From assembly GCA_029959195.1 (NCBI GenBank), contig CP114124.1, forward strand, positions 1,488,001 through 1,552,000: a stretch of 64,000 bases of DNA, read 5' to 3'. This document shows, in pieces, positions 11,603-64,000 of this stretch (position 1 is its first letter; each line of letters starts with the position of its first letter). This stretch comes from Dictyophora rubrovolvata. Its lineage: Eukaryota; Basidiomycota; Agaricomycetes; Phallales; Phallaceae. Both the position numbers and the translations under genes were made by a program. Below the pieces are notes generated by a model. The model searched no databases, was not told where the DNA came from, and worked only from the letters and a program-made list of their open reading frames with translations.

Positions 11603-13436
11603 ATGGACTTCCCTCCAACTCTCCGGTATGCGTGCTTCTTTTGAAAAAGTTTATTTAACGGTAGATTCATGATGTTACTTTTTTTGGTAGAAAATGGGTC
11701 GAATTACAGATGAGCAAGATGGACAATTCCAACAGGCAAGAAGCCATGGATGAAATGAAGAAGGTAATTCAACAGCATACCTTAGCGGGAGATATGTGGA
11801 CGTTCGATTGGCTATCCCTTAAGTTGGAAAGGCAAGTCGAATTCTTTGCGGCTTACCCATTTGGCTCATAATGTGCTGGTTCAAAAGTCTTGAGCCTAAG
11901 CTATTCTTGAAGCGGAAATTGTAAGCACTTGTCCAAAGCTTAAAGAAAATGTCGGTTTTTTAAAAATTCCCTTTTTTCTTCTTTTAAATGTAGCCAGCCA
12001 GAAACGAGTAATAAGAAAGGCAAGAAGGCAATTAAGACTTCATATGTTTTGGGAACCGAAGATGAGATCGCGAAAGCCAAAAGGGCTCGTCGGTTCGAAA
12101 GAGAGCATGAGCTTGAGAAACGACGATTGCGTACTGGGGGAGTCGGTTTTCAGAGCGACTTCGAATCATCTTCATCCTCATCACTTCATAATGCCCACTA
12201 TAGGGTAAATACAGGTCCAATTACACAAGGCGTCCATGACATTACGCTTGAGAATGGATACGATCCAGTATTCGTCCCGTCTTTCTTTTTTCGTACTTAT
12301 TTTCCTCATTTGATGTTTTAGAATGTTATCGATTGGGATAAATATACCATCGTCGGGAGATCAACGAGTCTGTTCAAGGATTATCTTCGCCTCACAACTG
12401 TATGTTCACAGTTATTTCTAATTTTTTATTATTCGGACGTTATTTGATGTTCTGTTCTAGGAACCTAATCCTGATGATATACGTCCTATTCATGTTCTCA
12501 AATTGACGCTGAAAGAACTGAAACGCATTTGGAGGGAAAAGAATGATTATAAATATATCAACAATCAATTCAAATCCTTGCGACAGGACTTGACTGTTCG
12601 TGTTCTAGTGGAGATTATATCTATACTGAGATCTCTCGCACATAGGTTCAACGGATTAAATCCGATTTCACTGTTCAAGTGTATGAAATACATGCACGAA
12701 TGGCATTAGAAGCCGTGAGTTTTTATTTGACTTTGTGCCGATTGTCCCTGTAATATCATGCGTCTCTGTAAGGGTGACATGGTCGAGTATAATCAGTGTC
12801 AGGGAATGCTGAAACATCTATACGATCTCGGCCTTCCGGGTAGCTTTCATGAGTTCTTAGCATATCGCCTCCTTTCTATGCTGCACGGACGAAATAAGAG
12901 TGGTAAGCGCAATATTTTTCCCCCCTAGGTTGTAACGCTTCTAATTCTTGCCGCTAGAAATGAATATACTAGTAGGTCAACTAACCGATGAACAGAAAGC
13001 CGCTTCAGCGATACGTCATGCCCTGGAAGTATCCAAAGCTTTAACCAGAAATAATTACCACGCTTTCTTCCGTCTTTTTGATACGGCTCCAAATATGGGT
13101 GGTTACATTATGGACCACTTTGTGGAGGAGAAACGAATTTTGGCATTGATTACTATGTGCAAATCGTCGGTGTCCTTCTTGATTTTAAACCCATTATTTC
13201 GAGGCTAACGTCGGCGTAGTTACTTAACATTACCGCTTTCCTTCATTGAGAAAGAACTAAGTTATGACTCCTTAGAAGCAACTCGCAAATCACTAGAAAC
13301 TCACAATAGTGCCATCTTCAAGAATCCCCATGACATGGATAGTCTGAAGAATATTGATTGTCGAGCCGCTTTACCGCATTTAATCGCTGCCTTCGAAGAC
13401 AAGTACAGCAAAGTAGGAATCAAGGGCCGTATCTAA
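11603..13436 (+). CDS. Thp3/LENG8-like Sac3/GANP-family protein
   Basis: 435 residues. Exons 11603-11625, 11691-11831, 11888-11920, 11994-12267, 12322-12399, 12461-12595, 12646-12714, 12773-12902, 12958-13165, 13220-13436. Yeast Thp3 works with Csn12 in transcription elongation and mRNA processing. Family marks: VGRSTSLFKDYLRLTTEPNP, IRPIHVLKLTLKELK, YKYINNQFKSLRQDLTVQRI, VYEIHARMALEAGD and YNQCQGMLKHLYDLG, which form the Sac3/GANP helical region; a PCI-like tail follows. The N-terminal KWVELQMSKMDN..DW segment also fits LENG8. Intron 2 (11832-11887) has a GC donor (AG|GCAAGT), needed to keep frame. The introns ending exon 6 (GTTCGT) and exon 9 (GTCGGT) also have weak donors. Confidence 0.9.
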
Positions 13437-15124: not shown

Positions 15125-17592
15125 ATGCAAGAACGTCGTCGAGCAGAATTAGAGGCTAAACGAGCCAGATTAGCTGAATACAAACGGGCTCGCGAGGAGA
15201 GGCAAAAGGCGTCAGCCGAAAATGCAAGGCGGAGAGAAAGTGAAGTGCGTCTCCAAACTCAGGAACCTCTCGAAAAATTCGCATTTAAATTGCATAGGCT
15301 GGTCCATCGATTGCGAGACGAGACGCAGAGGATCTTGTCGATATTCTGTTGAGCGATAGACCGAGGACTGGCGAAAGTACGGGAGAGCGGACACCTTTGT
15401 CAGCACCTGGTACACCAGCACCGGCAGGCTCAGTGCTAGCCAGTACTCTGATTGGGACAGGGTCAGGAAGACTGAGTAGAGCTAGCAATGCTTCTGATTC
15501 ACCGATCCCCACTCGAAGAAGCGGCGAGCAGGTCGTTGTTCAGCAAGAAAGGTATGATGAACTGTACTCAAATTTTGCTCATGTCCTTTGTTGAAGACAC
15601 TCTAGGTTTATACCCGACTTGATAGATGTCGAACAAGAGCTTTTTGAGCTGCCGAGGAAGGTACGAAGCCTATGCTATTGAATTTACAAGATAGATATCG
15701 ATAGGTATTCTGACAGGAACGTGTCGTATACAACAAGGAGGTTCAGACCGCCGAAGTGGCTATTGAAACATTCCCTATACCGCAAGAAGATATGGTTCAA
15801 CGGATTACAAAAGAGCAGCAAGAGGCTGAATTAGCAGCTACCCGCGAAAAGGAGCTTCAAGAGGAAGAAGCGAAACTAGAGAAAGAAATTGAAGATGAAA
15901 TCCGAGGTGCGCGCATGGTTACGTATTTGAAACCAACTCATTCATTTCTGTTGTATAGAAATTACCGAGGAAGAAAGAGCCAATATTTTTGTCGCCCCCG
16001 AATTCATCGAATTTTTGGAGCAGTCGTCGAAAATCGTTCAGCGGGCACTAAGTGATGGTTATGATTATATCAGAGATTACACCGTTGGAGCTGATTCTGG
16101 ACAGTAGGTCATTTTCTACAGGTGCCATGTCTTTTATAACACTGATGGTACGTGAAGTGACGATTCAGAGGGGAAACGAGTCAAGCGGGTGTGTGCTTTC
16201 TGGGACGAACAGCGATGTAAAAACAGGTCGATAACTGATGTTGATTGGTCTCCAAAGGCGTGGCTTATTATTTATATTTTCCATATTATTTTATTAACGC
16301 TGTTTAGTATCCTGAATTGAGCGTGGCTTCTTATAATAAGAACCCTGCAGCTTTGAACGAGCCCGATGGAATCGTTGCCGTCTGGAATCTTCACTTGTTG
16401 GAGCGACCTGAGTTTGTTTTCCATTCACAGGTATGAATCAAATTGGTCAAAAATGATTGTTGTCTAATTTATTTCAGTCCGATGTTCTTTCCGTGTGCTT
16501 TTCACCATTCCATTCAAACCTCGTATTCGGTGGAACCTATTCAGGCCAAATTCTCCTATGGGACACTCGATCTAAGCATCTTCCGATTCTCAAAACACCA
16601 CTTTCGGCTGCAGGACACACCCACCCAGTTTATGCTATGCAAATGGTCGGAACACAGAATGCACACAACCTTATTACAAGTAGTACAGATGGTACTGTGT
16701 GCAGTTGGCTGGTCGATATGCTTGCGCAACCTCAGGTCAGAAAAACGTGTTGTTGCAAACGGTCCTAAAAGGGGTTGACTTTTTTTTTTGCACAGGAAAC
16801 GCTGGAGCTGGTATACTCGGGACATAATAAGACTAATGAAGTTGCAATCACGACGCTTGCTTTTCCGGACAATGAAACAACCACATTTTGGGTTGGCACA
16901 GAAGAAGGCAGTGTTTATCAAGCCAACAGATATGATAGAGCCGGAGCCAAAGCTGGATTGCAACAAACCGATATTTACAGAGGACACTCTGGTCCAATTA
17001 TGGGAATCGACTTTCATCCACTTCTCGGAGCGGTTGATTTCTCCGACTACTTCCTTACATGTTCTGTAGATTGGACAGTGAAGCTGTGGCGCAGGTCACC
17101 AACCAAAAACTCAAATACTGTGCAGTTCATTACACCGCTGTATTCCTTTGACGAGGCTGACGATTATGTTTACGATGTCAAATGGCATCCTTCGCACCCA
17201 GCTTTGTTCGGAACAGTGGACGGAGCGGGAAGGTTTGATCTCTGGAATTTAAATATTGACACTGAGGTATGTGTGAGAGAGAGAAAAAGGCAGACCCTGC
17301 TTCCGTTTTCACCCCATGCTTACCCGCGAAAAAAAAGGTCCCTGTCGTGCCGACGCAAGTTGGCTCAAATCGGGCTATCAACAAATTGGAATGGGACAAA
17401 AAGGATGGTCGCAGGGCGGCACTAGGATCGAGCGATGGTAAATTGTACATTTATGATATTGGAGACATGGGCATCCCCAGAGAATCGGAATGGACTGATT
17501 TGCAGCGTACAATTGCGAGCATTGCTGGAACATCGCTGAACGCAAGCAATCTCGACGTTGGAGGAGATCCTCGAATATTGGCTGGCCGGTGA
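15125..17592 (+). CDS. Cytoplasmic dynein intermediate chain
   Basis: 656 residues. Exons 15125-15244, 15298-15551, 15606-15660, 15717-15906, 15959-16103, 16158-16257, 16308-16430, 16478-16735, 16796-17266, 17338-17592. The N-terminal charged coiled coil ([20 protein letters not shown]) is the dynactin p150-binding helix of this family. A Ser/Pro-rich linker, then [12 protein letters not shown], a likely LC8 light-chain site, and an acidic helix follow. From about residue 250 a seven-bladed WD40 propeller runs to the end ([74 protein letters not shown]). It links dynein heavy chain to cargo and dynactin. Intron 6 (16258-16307) starts with GC (AAAG|GCGTGG), the only donor that gives SPK-YPEL in frame. 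Confidence 0.95.
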
Positions 17593-17718: not shown

Positions 17719-19809
17719 ATGCTGCGTCACATAAATAATCCGTGCGCTCGAGTTGGTACCGGTGGCATTGTTACGGCACATTTCTCTTCTCGACTTCTTT
17801 GTCGTCATTCATCAGTTTCTCGCCGTTCCAAACTATTTTCTCGAACAATGTCTTCTACACAAGGTTTCAAACAGGCAGGTCGCGTATTGAAAATCTTCTA
17901 AGTACATTTACTGACATGATTGTTATTCAGGACCCCCATAAGTGAGTATCTTATTATACATATTCAATTCCTTCAGTTGATACCCTTCCGTCAACCAGGT
18001 TGCTAGTGTGAGACATTCTGCGCTCAACCTCAAAGAGCTCTAATGTGATACTCTCTTTTTCTAGAATACCTGGACCAATTGAGGTCGCAGACGACGTATG
18101 TATATGCATTCTTGTTTATCTCTTCCATTCTTCATCCCCCAACACAGGTATTGTATGCTAATGCCCATCCGTCTATGAGCCATGTCTCTGCGGAATTCAT
18201 TCCCGTCTTCGGCGACTGCATCCGGAATATTCGGTGAGAGCTTATATTTAGCGACCCGCTTCCTTGGGCCTTAGTCAGGTTACAGCAAAGTGCTTTACAC
18301 CGAGACGGCGCAGCCTTTCTTGATTGCAGGATCTGGGACATTAGGATGGGACCAGGTTGGAGCTAATTTAGTTGGTGCGTGTGAGCGTGAATAGTACGAT
18401 TGTTCCTTCTTATTGATCAGCCGGACTTGAACCTAGAGCCGGGAGAGAAAGCAATCGTCCTCCATTCAGGTAAAATTTCCTTAGCAACACTCTTTACGGT
18501 TTACTCAAAAAGTATCAGGGTATTTCGGAGATAGTTTCGCTGATGCGTTGAGTGTCCCAACATACCTAGTACGTGTTCGTTTCTGACCGCCTTTTTAGCC
18601 TACGAACGTATGGAGCGGATGTCGAACAATTGAAAGCTGAATTGGGAATGCCTGTTCTGGAAGCCGAACTGGAAAACTGTCTCATGACTAAGAAACCTAA
18701 AATTGTGACATTTACCCATGTGGATACATCGTGCGTATTTAAATACTGTTGGAGACATATACGAACCTATTTCAATCAGGACGGGTGTTTTGTCCAATGC
18801 CAAGCGCATTGCAGAAACAGTCCGAAGGGTTTCTCCAGAAACGCTTGTGCGTACCTCTGCATTTTAACGAACTCGTTGAATTTGCACACTCATCTTTTAA
18901 TCTACTCTAGGTCGTTCTTGATGGTGTTTGTTCCGTTGCTAGCGAAGAGATCCGATTCGATGAATGGGATATTGATGTGGTCATGACTGCTACACAGAAA
19001 GGACTCGGAACCCCTCCGGGTCTTAGTGTTCTCGTGGCAAGCAAACGGGCAATGGATCTCTTCGCTACAAGGAAGGCTCCTCCAGGGTCATACTATGCCA
19101 GCTGGAAGAAGTAAGAGTTTTTATCATAACTTCAAAGTTGAGATTAAAAAAAGGCTCGCTGGGACACAGATGGCTCCCCATTATGCAAGCTTATGAGCAA
19201 GGAAAAGCGGCATACTTTGCTACTCCACCAGTGAATTTGATCTATGCCTTTTCGGCCTCGCTCGCTCGCATTGTTGATGGCTCCCCATCTTTGGACGAAC
19301 GTTTCCGGCTGCATCGAGAGGCTGCCAGAAAGGTCAGGCAGGCTGTTACTGATTTGAATTTGAAACAGGTAGAATGTGTTTTTATACTCAGCAAGTTGTT
19401 TTAGATCAACGTTTGCTTTTTCTCTAGGTACCTGTCAATGATTCGTTCGCGGCTAACGGTATGACCGCTGTAAGAGCTTTTCACGTAAACCGCTTTTTTT
19501 TGGAACATCTAATGGTTTTTTTCTTCTTGGCAGGTATATTACCCCGAGGGAGTAGCAGCGGGTGATTTACTTTCTCGTATGGCGAAGAGAGACATTGTTG
19601 TTGCTGGAGGTTTGCACACTGACATAAAAGGTCTATCCAATTCTACCTTTGTAACGCCCGGAAGTTGATCCTTTTCTTCAGATAAATACTTCCGTATTGG
19701 CCATATGGGTATCACTGTTGTCGATTCTCACCGAGGGGATGTAGATAAGCTTATAAAAGCATTGCAAGAATCCATAACAGAAGCAAAGGAATCGGTTTCG
19801 AAGGCGTAG
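17719..19809 (+). CDS. AGX1: Alanine/serine-glyoxylate aminotransferase (class V, AGXT/AGX1)
   Basis: PLP enzyme that transaminates glyoxylate to glycine. Exons from the inner ATG: 17848-17883, 17931-17941, 18065-18095, 18148-18233, 18286-18374, 18437-18469, 18519-18546, 18599-18730, 18780-18846, 18911-19110, 19170-19368, 19428-19469, 19534-19630, 19682-19809 (392 residues). An in-frame ATG at 17719 adds 43 residues rich in Arg and Ser with no acid (SSRLLCRHSSVSRRSKLFSR), a good mitochondrial presequence, giving 435. Marks: HPSMSHVSAEF, LIAGSGTLGWDQVGANLVEP, VTFTHVDTSTGVL, VVLDGVCSVASEE, and TATQKGLGTPPG with the PLP-lysine. Exon 2 is only 11 bases. The chain ends VSKA, not a strong peroxisomal signal. 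Confidence 0.94.
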
Positions 19810-54810: not shown

Positions 54811-54847
54811 ATATATATATATATATGCGTGCGTGTGCGTGTGTGTA
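54811..54847. repeat. TA/TG dinucleotide microsatellite before REC8
   Basis: (AT)8 followed by gcgtgcgtgtgcgtgtgtgt, ending 33 bases before the REC8 start, so likely in its promoter or leader. Confidence 0.8.
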
Positions 54848-54879
54848 TGCTCGACGCCGTCTTGATCTTTCTCCCCGCC

Positions 54880-57806
54880 ATGTTTTTCAGCACCGAGCTA
54901 TTAGCTCGACGAGACAGCGGATACGGTCTTTTGTGGTATTGTGCCTATCCTCTTTTCAGGACATGTGTATATTCAATTATTATTGCAGGTTGGCTGCGAC
55001 ACTCGGTTCAAAGTCGAAGAAACTTGGCCGTCGAGAGGTGGTGTCGGCGGATATAGCGCGCCTCTGTAACTTGGTCTCTCAACCGCCCGAGCCACTTGCT
55101 TTGCGCCTTTCTAGTAATTTGATGGTCGGCGTAGTTCGGTACGATTCTAGACATGTTTTCTTTTAAAAAAATACAGATATTACTAATGCTATTTGCGCTT
55201 TTAGGGTTTATAAAAGTATGTATTTCCTCCTGTCGTTTGGTGTGTGGTTTGACAAACACTGGTTTTAGTCAAGTGCGATATCTTTGAAAGTGATGTTAGC
55301 AATTGCGTCGTATCTTTAAAGAAAAACTTGAACGAGTTGCGTTCCACAAATAAGGGAGGTATAGACATGATACCAGTGGCGCAAAGGTTAGAAATACTAT
55401 AGAAATAGTACATGCGATATCTTCAACTTTCTTATTTTTCACAGGCCAGACACTCTAAATTTGCAAATCGATCCTGCTATGTACATGACTATCGAACTGG
55501 ATGGGATTATTGACGTGAGTCTTACTTGCTATTTGTCCTATTCGTTCATTGGCGACCTTGAGCTTAGGACTGGGATGTGATTTGTCGAAACATTAATGAA
55601 GGTAAATTCTACTTTAAACTTTGATTGAAATCAAAATTCTTATGTGTTGTCCAGATGAAAAACTCCCTGACCATCCTAGTTTCTTGTCTTCCCTCAATCC
55701 AAATAAATCAGTCAACGCGTCTGTATCTTTCAACTCTTACGATAGAAATAAATTACACAAGCTTGACGAATCATTTGAGCATTTATTTTCCAGCTCCTTT
55801 CTGAAATCACTTGGGGGCGAAAATTTGGATGAGCCGTCCACGTCCCCCGCTGCAAACATAAACGATGTTCTCTTCAACTTGGATTTTGATGAACCAATTG
55901 GGCTGGGTGAAGAGATGGAGAAGGACCTTGAAGAGGCGTGGAACTTGTCTTTACGACAGGAGGGGGAACGCAACAAAAGGTATACATATATGCTAGTGAT
56001 TATTACTGACTCGTAATTCGTCCTGCAAGCATAATCAAACCACGAGAAAGTAGCGTCCCAGGAATAATAGACCCTTTTGGACCTTGTGACGATGGACAAG
56101 GATATACTATACCCACGGCAGAGGTATGATTTGTGTAAACGCATTATCCTTATGGTCTAATAGTTCCCAGCCTATGGATATAATGCCTCCAAACGAAGAT
56201 CCCTTTGGTATGCTACTCTCCGCTAAAATGTGTTTATATACTAAATACCTCTTTCAAAGGCATTTCACCCGCGCGCATGATGCTTGCGAACCAAATGGAC
56301 CAGATGCACATGGACGCTAACCCAGTACAAACAATAGAAACGATTGTCATTGAAAAAGTGTCAAAACCGAAAATAAAGAAGTATACCATAACTTTGGACC
56401 CGACAACGGAGTTATCTGATGAACAAATGAAGGCAAGCTTCACATGTTATCATGAACCCCGGCTCCTGATTAATTTAAATTTAGGCTAACAGACAGAACC
56501 ACTTCGAGGAAATGAAACGTCAAAAATTGGACATGGATAAGAAGCGTTATGAAAAAGAACGGAAACGGAAATTCGAAGAAGCTCTATGGAACCCTCCTTC
56601 GCATTGTGCGTTCATTTGCGTTTTTGGTGTCCTTTAGTCTTACACGGTCTTTGATTAGTCTATGCACCCGAACTTGTTGGTCTATGGAATGAACGTGTTA
56701 TTAATCCGGTCCGACAACAAGAAACTTTATGGAGGGAGAGCCTGGAGAATAACGGTACGGTTTCCTTTACTCTCGATTTGCAATACTATTTGAGACGAAA
56801 TTTTTGTACAGCCAATGGTCGACCTAAGAAACGTCGTCAAACCGGTGAAAAGCCGTACACGATAGCTAAATCTCGGGACAACAGTATTTTCAACGGTCCG
56901 GGAGACACCATACCCTTAGACGGTTTTAATGAAATTCAGATGGATGTGGATACAATTTTACCGCCTGAATTTCCTCTCAGCTCTGGAAGCAGACGTTCCT
57001 CTCAGGTTAGTTTAAGTAATAATAATAAATATAATTTAGTTTTGATTGAATATATGTATAGGATCTAGGACAACCACGACATGCTTCCAACCCACCTCTT
57101 TCGCACAGTATTAGTATATTAGAACATGGCGCAGACCATTATGAGTCGCAAGGGTTTCTGTCCAACAATATTTTTCCCTGGGATAACGCCCCCAATTCTT
57201 CTTCGACTGGAGCCGTTTTGACCGGATTTGCAAATAGGAGTGATGCTCAGATTAGTATAGAGGGCTCTGTTGTACGCCTGAGAAGAGGGTCGGGAAGTAT
57301 TGGCAGTAGTCCAACTGTCGTTTTCAACGATCTCTCGCTCCCCGATGTCATAAACAGTGATAGTGGAGCCGTTTTAGGAGGTGGGTCGGACAATATCGTC
57401 TTTTTTTGAACAAACCAATCGGATTGTTTAGACAACGACGAACAAATGATTGGAGAAGCTCAAGGAGAATCTGACAACATTGTGACGTTAGAAAGGAATT
57501 CATTCAATTTTTTGGGGTATGCTATATACATAATTGTTTCTTCTGCATTTTTTTGACCCATTAATTTAGCTATGCCAAAATGCATGCAACCACGACGCGC
57601 GGGGAGTTGTTCTTCTCTGACATAGTTCCGCTTGAAAGCAGCTCAGCTCGAGTGGCAGCTGAAGGATTTTATCACTGCTTGGGTAAGATTCATGACCCGA
57701 GCCTGAGTGCATTTATTCAATTCCTTCCATAGCTCTCGCTACTAAAAAACTTATAAATCTCAATCAAACTGAACCTTATGGCCCCATTAGAATACATATT
57801 TTGTAG
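54880..57806 (+). CDS. REC8: Meiotic cohesin kleisin Rec8
   Basis: 689 residues; closes the cohesin ring between sister chromatids in meiosis. Exons 54880-54935, 54989-55138, 55205-55215, 55269-55386, 55445-55514, 55568-55601, 55655-55979, 56030-56123, 56171-56207, 56260-56432, 56485-56605, 56659-56754, 56812-57005, 57062-57380, 57432-57516, 57570-57682, 57733-57806. N-terminal Rad21/Rec8 domain: MFFSTELLARRDSGYGLLW, ARLCNLVSQPPEPLALRLSS, NLMVGVVRVYKIKCDIFESD. The middle is disordered with a KIKKYTITLDPTTELSDEQM block. The C-terminal winged helix ends FYHCLALATKKLINLNQTEP. Length and no strong Rad21-only features favour Rec8. Exon 3 is 11 bases; intron 10 (56433-56484) has a GC donor. Confidence 0.9.
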
Positions 57807-61244: not shown

Positions 61245-62093
61245 TTATTCGATGACTCCAAGATGATCTTCTTTTATCGTTCCGATGGCAAACTAAAGAA
61301 CATTAACATAATCGTTTGTAACTTGGCAATAAAAGATTTGTAACACACAATTTCGGTCGCATCCACACGAGTACCAACTATCTTTAGCCGAACTCTGGTA
61401 TTCCTTTCGACGATCTACGAGTAAGGATTAATAAAAGTATATCACAAAAAGTCTAGAATAACCTGATCCGCAGATGCAAAAGAAGGTGGATTCGAATTAG
61501 GATCAAAGCGAAGGTCGGGGTGGACGAGCTACTCCAAATTTAAGGGCGGTTCTGTTTTCAGTGATTATGAGCTTCACCTGATGCGACACGAAAACCGTCA
61601 GAGGACCAACATCCGCAAAAAAGCCCATCTACAACCACAATTACCATCAAGGGACAAACAAACAGGATTACAGGCTAGCACACCTTATTTACATTATTGA
61701 CGACAGCGTCCACAACTTCGCCTTTGAACGGTTTGAATACGATGGCTCGATATCGGGTAATAAATTCAGCTTGGCCACTTCCGACAAGCACCATACCCTT
61801 CCCAATGTCTATGACATTAATGACGGCAATAATATAACCGAATTCTCCTGAACATGTTCCTATGGAAGATAAAGGCGTGTCAACAACTAACATGCATCCA
61901 AAAAAACAGCGCATGTGAGCCCACCTTCTACATCTGCGTATAATTTTTTCTCGAGAAATTCGGTCATTCGGGGACCAAAATACGAGGGATGCAGAAGAAT
62001 AGTATGAGACAGCTCTTTCTGCAATGATTACAGAATGTCAGGAAAATAGCATTCTGACTCCAGTGACTGCTAGGCACTCACGATGAAGAACAT
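61245..62093 (-). CDS. RPB7: RNA polymerase II subunit Rpb7
   Basis: 170 residues (yeast 171); with Rpb4 it forms the stalk that binds emerging RNA. Exons 62082-62093, 61925-62018, 61684-61859, 61578-61628, 61463-61528, 61349-61414, 61245-61292. Marks: [89 protein letters not shown] and [20 protein letters not shown], the truncated RNP fold plus S1 domain. The first exon is 12 bases, ATG plus three codons. Divergent to POL3. Confidence 0.97.
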
Positions 62094-62379: not shown

Positions 62380-64000
62380 ATGTTGACAGACAACTCAAAC
62401 TCGCTTCCCAAGTAATTTTGAAGTTTATGTATCCTGTGGCGATTCCTCACACATTCATTTTTAGCTCTCAAAGTACAGGTCATGCCACCAAAAGGCGAAG
62501 GCTCGCTGGTAGCCATGCCGAGATTGTCCCGCAAGAATCGTTTACAGAAGTTTTGAAGGAACTAGAGAAAAATACACCAGACGCCTTGAGTGAGCATTTA
62601 TTCTTGTTTCTTTTCAAGTGCTGAAATGTGAAAACGACATAGAGGCCGAGGCTGAAGGTGGAGCCAATGCTTGGAGTCGTCCTCCCTTAGGGGAGCTTAA
62701 TTCGAAGAATGATCCACTCAGTAGGCGTGCTCAAACGTTTTTCGGACTCTTGTGCTCATTCATGACTAGTTTTTCAACAAATTGACATTGAAGAGACTCA
62801 GGAAGCGAGGGCTTCGATTCGTATGTTTGGTGTAACGAAGGTACTGTTCGTTCCTAATCCATAGTTATTAGGTCTGATCGACATGCCCACGTCCTTAGGC
62901 CGGACACAGTGTCATGGCGATGATCGAAGACTTTTTGCCCTATTTCTATGTTCCTGCTCCCCGCAACTTCGATGACGATTGCCTTAAACCATTCTTGGAC
63001 ACAGTCAACGTGAGCTGCGTACTTCACAGCTGATATGCACGTGGTTTAATGTCTTATCCAGCGCTCGCTGCAATTTCCCATGGCAAAATCCGCAGAACTA
63101 GTCTCCAAACATCCCTTATTAAAATTTAGAGGAGACAACCGTGTTTGGTTTATCAAACTGGTCGTCCAGGACCAACGAGGCTTACCCAAAGTCAGAGATA
63201 AGTACTTCTTGGATGTATTTGAGTTGAAGTGGAGCAAGGGCCTGACGCTGTTAATTCATCACGCTTGTTTGAAAGTGAACGGGACCCATTTAGATTCCGT
63301 GACTTTACATTCGGAGATGCGACCTACGAAAGTAACATTCCATTTACTTTACGATTCATGATCGATACAAAGGCACGTTATTGTTTAATAGTTGAGGTTT
63401 CATCCCTAATGCATATTTAGATCGTAGGAATGAACTGGATAGAGTTTCCTGCGGGGAGCTACCAAATAGTTTCACACAAAACTTCACGTTGTCAGATCGA
63501 AATATCAACGAAGCAAGTTATTTCACGCATCATGCTACTTCATATACTGACAGCTTATCAGATGGAATACAATCATTTCACATGCGCCTGATGGAGAATG
63601 GTCGACACTAGCACCACTCAGAATCCTCAGTTTCGATATCGAGTGTGCGGGTCGTAAAGGTATCTTCCCTGAAGCCGATGTCGATCCCGTCATTCAAATC
63701 GCAAATATGGTTACTCGTCAAGGCACGTAAAAATCTCACTATCCAGAGCATTTATGATATTGAAAATTATTTTCGCAGGCGAATCAAAACCTTTCATACG
63801 CAATGTCTTAACCTTGAACTCGTGTGCACAGATAGTTGGCTCAGAAGTTTTACCGTTCCAGCGAGAAGTCGATTTACTTATGAAGTGGCGCGATTTCATT
63901 CAAGAAGTTGACCCTGATATCATCATCGGCTACAACATAGCTAATTTCGATTTTCCATATCTACTTGACCGAGCTAAGGCTCTCAAACTCGATGATTTCC
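62380..64000 (+). CDS. POL3: DNA polymerase delta catalytic subunit (5' part, cut by window end)
   Basis: Lagging-strand replicative polymerase. Exons 62380-62411, 62465-62589, 62643-62720, 62770-62840, 62899-63009, 63062-63201, 63294-63372, 63421-63512, 63562-63722, 63779->64000. An N-terminal basic stretch (ATKRRRLAG) is followed by [80 protein letters not shown] (exonuclease ExoI Asp-Ile-Glu) and [20 protein letters not shown] (ExoII). Introns 7, 8 and 9 (63373-63420, 63513-63561, 63723-63778) all begin with GC; no GT donor gives an open frame. Intron 6 (63202-63293) is a best fit. The start ([10 protein letters not shown]) is a likely but not certain choice. Confidence 0.92.

Follow-up and report, generated by a model that had tools for sequence, protein, structure and literature searches.

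In POL3, which encodes the catalytic subunit of DNA polymerase delta, three consecutive introns in this fungus begin with GC instead of GT, and the question is why, and whether such a run is more than chance. The window examined is the whole stretch of 64,000 nucleotides of DNA, corresponding to bases 1488001-1552000 of contig 8 in a genome of 28.24 Mb and 11 contigs. POL3 lies on the + strand, starts at 62380 and extends past the window end. The continuation beyond the window was fetched as locus L009, base 1 of which is window base 62001, and the gene was curated by hand. According to the curated model, the stop codon ends at window-scale position 66844 (L009 base 4844), and the spliced product of 1064 aa is encoded by a gene with 24 introns, four with GC donors (introns 7, 8, 9, and 20) and the other 20 GT-AG. 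The features of the gene that bear on the question are as follows, with a slash marking the splice junction.

62380..64000, + strand: 5' part of POL3, curated model, the remainder lying beyond the window
63202..63275, + strand: POL3 intron 6, GT-AG, 74 nt, the final GT intron ahead of the GC run, hand-placed to keep frame and the least certain among nearby introns
63373..63420, + strand: POL3 intron 7, GC-AG, 48 nt, AAG/GCACGT, phase 0, placed by homology; context score 6.07, top of 410 GT donors
63513..63561, + strand: POL3 intron 8, GC-AG, 49 nt, GAA/GCAAGT, phase 2, placed by homology; context score 4.83, 92nd percentile
63723..63778, + strand: POL3 intron 9, GC-AG, 56 nt, AAG/GCACGT, phase 1, placed by homology; context score 6.07; also found by the de novo model
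64022-64070, + strand: POL3 intron 10, GT, after the GC run, curated model
66057-66106 on the window scale (L009 4057-4106), + strand: POL3 intron 20, GC-AG, AAG/GCAAGC, curated model, outside the window

Residues 75-1057 of the predicted protein align with the yeast Pol delta chain and residues 61-1060 with the human chain (E=0, ~1220 bits), and this match of nearly the entire protein to catalytic subunits of Pol delta bears out the identification as POL3 made in a first-pass annotation of the window. The N-terminal ~60 residues and the start codon are predicted and lie outside the homology-supported part. The same annotation had placed GC donors at introns 7-9, with coordinates that agree with the sequence, and had proposed that each intron joins conserved Pol delta residues in frame. 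This was confirmed for all three, as the junctions FMIDTK/IVGMNW (intron 7), CQIEIST(K)/WNTIIS (intron 8), and MVTRQ(G)/ESKPFIRN (intron 9) align gap-free with both yeast and human Pol delta. Splicing of intron 20 gives VIIKGIK(G)/AAAYEKSEDP, which is gap-free versus the human chain and adjoins a 2-residue gap in the yeast chain. It had further been claimed that no GT donor serves instead, and the closest GT in introns 7-9 is indeed 4 bases inside, where its use would shift the frame and the context is poor (-0.7 to -0.8 bits). This protein evidence argues strongly that the GC splice sites of introns 7-9 are real.

All four GC introns begin with GC (+1,+2) and terminate in AG, and their lengths (48-56 nt) and YAG acceptors match those of the GT introns of POL3. 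A YTNAY word, a weak and common motif, is found ~12-25 nt before the end of each. A U12-type donor, ATATCCTT or GTATCCTT by the consensus assumed here, is absent from the POL3 GC introns, the donors of which are GCACGT, GCAAGT, GCACGT, and GCAAGC. A gene model trained de novo, described below, found three of the four GC introns, one with a wrong acceptor. The model missed intron 7, placing a TA donor upstream instead, and for intron 8 it found the right GC donor and an end at 63553, which is in the wrong frame.

The GC donor rate in this genome was estimated from a sample of 272.7 kb (~1% of the genome) comprised of the window, 16 spread 10-kb pieces, family-B polymerase genes, and six RNA polymerase subunit genes. 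Counting donor, branch, and acceptor words with regular expressions was uninformative, given how degenerate the splice signals of this genome are, and a trained model was therefore needed. The gene model was trained on the sample with the donor dinucleotide initially without preference among the 16, and this unbiased start yielded 376 introns with 321 GT, 18 GC, 15 TA, and 22 other donors. The branch motif was next reseeded, and three rounds were run on GT and GC introns only before the model was freed. After correction and the addition of genes, the final model contained 488 introns (459 GT, 18 GC, 9 TA, 1 AC, and 1 GA). The nine TA calls provide a measure of model noise; in one case TA was called in place of the real GC donor of POL3 intron 7, another call fell beyond the POL3 end, and there were seven others. 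The genome is very intron-rich, with the 488 predicted introns of the sample distributed over 62 predicted genes and a median intron of 55 nt.

Outside the POL3 locus and at lengths of 42-90, the model called 410 GT and 15 GC introns. Five of these GC calls were doubtful and were dropped. The 'intron' at L012 1124 reads as Pol epsilon coding sequence, judging by the human protein, while L021- 5754 and L026 619 had poor donor context. At L025- 3175 a GT donor was a better fit, judging by the gene family, and L071 5635 fell in RPB1 tail repeats with tiny exons. With these calls removed the GC rate outside POL3 is 2.4% (10/420, 95% interval 1.1-4.3%), and with all doubtful calls kept it is 3.5% (15/425); according to the gene model, a rate of 2-4% would be a fair statement for the genome. 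Homology extends across the junction in seven of the ten GC introns kept, and the other three are without homology support. The homology-supported junctions are those in RPA1, VPS34, the cytoplasmic dynein intermediate chain, the dynamin-like VPS1 (where a small gap lies close by), and CDC16/Cut9 (E=3e-5), together with a polysaccharide deacetylase and an AMP-binding enzyme in which the junction lies inside the matched Pfam stretch. The AMP-binding piece had no solved-structure match at 1e-5. Within the window, the following GC-AG introns were predicted in genes other than POL3.

11832..11887, + strand: predicted GC-AG intron, SAC3/GANP-family gene, AAG/GCAAGT, de novo model; family by Pfam, junction outside the matched domain
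16258..16307, + strand: GC-AG intron, cytoplasmic dynein intermediate chain gene, AAG/GCGTGG, de novo model; junction gap-free versus dynein intermediate chain 2
17875..17930, + strand: predicted GC-AG intron, early in a presumably aminotransferase-like gene, CAG/GCAGGT, de novo model only
56433..56484, + strand: predicted GC-AG intron, Rad21/Rec8-family cohesin subunit gene, AAG/GCAAGC, de novo model; family by Pfam, junction outside the matched domain

No Pfam match was found in the first 119 residues of the gene with the intron at 17875..17930. The Rad21/Rec8-family cohesin subunit gene (window 54847-57806, + strand) has 16 predicted introns, one of which is GC-AG.

The first-pass annotation had given the GC-AG share as about 1% of fungal introns. 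This figure matches the published fungal mean of 1.009% (PMC7072748), but the estimate for this genome is nearer 2.4-3.5%. For Ganoderma lingzhi, the annotation of which was manually corrected, the reported figure is 1.85% GC-AG (PMC11590231). The rate in this genome is somewhat above the fungal mean and near that of Ganoderma lingzhi, with an interval of 1.1-4.3% that nearly touches the mean.

A common property of the POL3 GC donors is the quality of the positions surrounding the dinucleotide. Scored without +1,+2, the donors of introns 7, 8, 9, and 20 reach 4.8-6.1 bits and fall at the 100th, 92nd, 100th, and 97th percentile of the 410 GT donors, respectively, and the remaining donor positions of all four are near consensus. 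Outside POL3 the fraction of GC donors follows the same property, with 0/131 below 2 bits, 2/156 at 2-3.5, 0/81 at 3.5-4.5, 3/37 at 4.5-5.5, and 5/15 above (Mann-Whitney p=2e-5), a trend that rests on 10-15 GC introns and on calls and context scores sharing one gene model, by which strong-context GC calls can be favoured. Leaving out two of the five doubtful calls on the ground of poor context helps the argument from context; the analysis was therefore repeated with 15 and with 12 calls kept, and the conclusion stands. With all 15 calls kept the same bins contain 2/133, 3/157, 0/81, 5/39, and 5/15 (p=0.0003). In strong contexts, POL3 has 4 GC and 5 GT donors compared to 8 GC and 44 GT donors in the rest of the sample (Fisher p=0.065).

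Predicted pairing with U1, calculated with a canonical U1 end, describes the same donors differently. The pairing energies for introns 7, 8, 9, and 20 are -3.0, -1.4, -3.7, and -4.8 kcal/mol, respectively, and with T at +2 instead they would be -6.4, -5.6, -8.0, and -9.5 kcal/mol, a predicted cost of 3.4-4.7 kcal/mol for GC versus the same donor with GT. The median of the 410 GT donors is -5.4, and 17%, 7%, 21%, and 40% of them are weaker than introns 7, 8, 9, and 20, respectively. Among the 20 GT donors of POL3, three (at 62412, 65202, and 66257) pair as weakly as that of intron 7 or more weakly. By these calculations the POL3 GC donors appear weak in predicted U1 pairing and strong in context, and both descriptions are true. 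Mammalian GC donors are reported to be closer to consensus and to arise from GT (PMC2490688). For human and mouse, a later study reports weaker donor and acceptor sites in GC-AG introns (PMC7242645), which is a misfit with a simple compensation picture.

These results are probably best explained by ordinary U2-type introns in which a nearly neutral change from T to C at +2 is tolerated through a good remaining donor and scattered unevenly. The major spliceosome reads donors through U1, then U6. A C at +2 would lose one pair, for which close matching at -2, -1, and +3 to +6 may compensate in the contacts with U1 and U6. Such a C would be tolerated mainly where the other donor positions approach the consensus AAG/GYAAGT, and strong-context donors would drift between GT and GC. 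Nine POL3 donors belong to the strongest class and four of these are GC; three of the four could be neighbors by chance. The POL3 GC introns would then probably be removed constitutively. The weaker predicted U1 pairing of these donors, and the weaker sites reported for human and mouse, count against this reading.

The run had been described as unexpected, and it does exceed expectation. At a flat rate of 2.4%, the probability of at least 4 of 24 GC introns in POL3 is 0.002 and that of a run of three in the gene is 0.00025. The frequency of GC donors in POL3 (4/24) also exceeds that elsewhere, both against 10/420 (Fisher p=0.0046) and against 15/425 (p=0.014). When a logistic model of GC on donor context, fitted without POL3, is applied to the gene, the main GC set gives P=0.014 for the run of three and P=0.05 for at least four, while with the two alternative GC sets the values are 0.010 and 0.005 for the run, and 0.046 and 0.022 for at least four, respectively. 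The context model expects 1.2-1.6 GC donors in POL3 and four are observed (P=0.02-0.05). Part of the POL3 cluster is unexplained by context, as seen both in this excess and in the run (P=0.005-0.014). Under independence, and with an extrapolated ~50,000 introns, the expected number of runs of three genome-wide is 0.07 at a GC rate of 1.2%, 0.24 at 1.85%, 0.5 at 2.4%, and 3.0 at 4.3%. A genome-wide rate high enough to make the run ordinary had been named as one finding that would refute the observation, and the rate of 2.4-3.5% does so in small part only. Once context is taken into account, the excess left is modest and concerns a single gene among the many open to a scanning reader, and the run of three is a mild curiosity, not a new mechanism.

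Regulation offers a different explanation, in which splicing of POL3 could be tuned through the weaker GC donors of introns 7-9, and retention would lower Pol delta output under some condition. Three adjacent donors with weak predicted pairing (only 7-21% of the 410 GT donors are weaker) are consistent with this proposal, as are the consequences of retention, since a stop would be reached in introns 7, 9, and 20, and intron 8, at 49 nt, would shift the frame. GC donors elsewhere have already been linked to regulated splicing, and from a regulated GC-AG intron of the let-2 type condition-dependent splicing that needs the C would be expected. A stop or a shift of frame would, however, likewise follow from retention of 19 of the 20 GT introns of POL3, only intron 22 being open and a multiple of three, and the effect of retention is therefore no specific evidence for regulation. 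The GT donors of POL3 that pair as weakly as that of intron 7, or more weakly, also count against it, and in G. lingzhi the genes that contain non-canonical sites are not significantly enriched for any function (PMC11590231). The first-pass annotation had suggested weak donors with a perhaps regulatory role. The weakness is upheld for predicted U1 pairing, which lies below the GT median (7-40% of GT donors being weaker), but not for context, where these donors are among the best. A regulatory role for the POL3 GC introns is possible, though not specifically supported by these observations, and as an explanation of the run we consider it unlikely.

It is also unlikely that C at +2 is actually preferred where the other donor positions match U1 perfectly, offsetting a donor that would otherwise be too strong, a proposal by which the donors of strongest context would be GC about as often as GT. 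In the sample, 4/11 AAGGCAMGT words are predicted donors (two of the four outside POL3), although ~4 such words and not 11 would be predicted from a 1% genome share, and 1/4 AAGGTAMGT words is a predicted donor (in POL3). The wider class VAG/GYAHGT contains 6 GC and 8 GT donors, while the corresponding words with GA (0/25) and GG (0/24) yielded none, both being unlikely by the trained model anyway. Genome-wide, AAGGTAMGT occurs 566 times versus 821 for the reversed word, and AAGGCAMGT, at 454 versus 431, is level. AAGGTAMGT is thus rarer than its reversed control despite an estimated ~50,000 introns, which may reflect avoidance of GT donors with a full match. One possible reading of the word counts, which are confounded by coding sequence and in the sample are tiny, is selection against donors with a complete match, relieved by C at +2. 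Should such a trade-off between +2 C and context hold across the genome, short-intron fungi would be a clean system for the study of selection against very strong 5' splice sites.

A regional process, in which POL3 gained several GC donors together through local T-to-C mutation or through gain of an intron set with GC donors, would account for the excess in POL3 over the rest of the sample and for the location of introns 7-9 together within 406 bp. Local mutation bias had been put forward in the first-pass annotation and fares poorly, as the G+C content of 63373-63778 (0.409) is lower than that upstream in POL3 (0.446) and there is therefore no visible local push towards C. Furthermore, introns 7-9 compared by eye have nothing in common beyond splice signals, and intron 20 is 2.3 kb distant from them with ten GT introns between. 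A shared regional origin of these donors is accordingly doubtful.

A general change in the splicing machinery was considered together with a search for the spliceosomal RNAs. Rfam models applied to the whole genome easily detected six copies of U2 and four copies of U6, of which two U2 and two U6 copies were detected a second time, while U1 was not found genome-wide (best match 17.8 bits, cut-off 69.5). The 5' end word of U1, ATACTTRCCTG, in which G may replace A so as to pair with GC, occurs at 38 places, none of them matched by Rfam at an E threshold of 1, and the gapped word occurs at one place with no Rfam match. No U1 gene emerged from these scans, which covered the 38 places and the one gapped place; a further 115 places have another base after that word. 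Fungal U1 RNAs reportedly deviate extremely from those of other groups (PMC3033335), and the miss therefore says little; this fungus may have a strongly divergent U1. A U1 variant or splicing factor accepting C at +2, which would raise GC use everywhere and could draw on the failure to detect U1 and on a rate of ~2.4% versus a mean of 1.0% that its interval nearly touches, is very unlikely, since the miss is uninformative and strong contexts remain where GC donors are most frequent, which would be expected of an unchanged U1.

The tolerated T-to-C change favoured here can be compared with known systems. The basidiomycete Ganoderma lingzhi has a gene with several GC-AG introns; a finger of that gene is also found in Pol zeta, and the gene may be Pol delta or Pol zeta. 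Multiple GC-AG introns in one fungal gene are already in print, as the report on this likewise fungal genome, with 1.85% GC-AG, describes several in one gene (PMC11590231). That gene also has an AT-AC intron, whereas none of the POL3 introns (0/24) is AT-AC. U2-type GC-AG introns, as described elsewhere (PMC7072748, PMC2490688), have the same GC donor and AG acceptor with the rest near AG/GYAAGT, and POL3 differs from them in having three adjacent and a fourth in one gene, in a genome with a rate somewhat above the fungal mean. GC donors likewise exceed their usual share in Aureococcus anophagefferens (39.6% GC-AG) and Micromonas pusilla (22.2%) (PMC3033335). These two algae are very G+C-rich, with tens of percent GC-AG, whereas the window examined here is ~44% G+C and the GC rate is ~2.4%. 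For annotation, a GT-only gene finder would break POL3 at four places, and genome-wide perhaps one intron in thirty to forty would be affected by GT-only gene finding.
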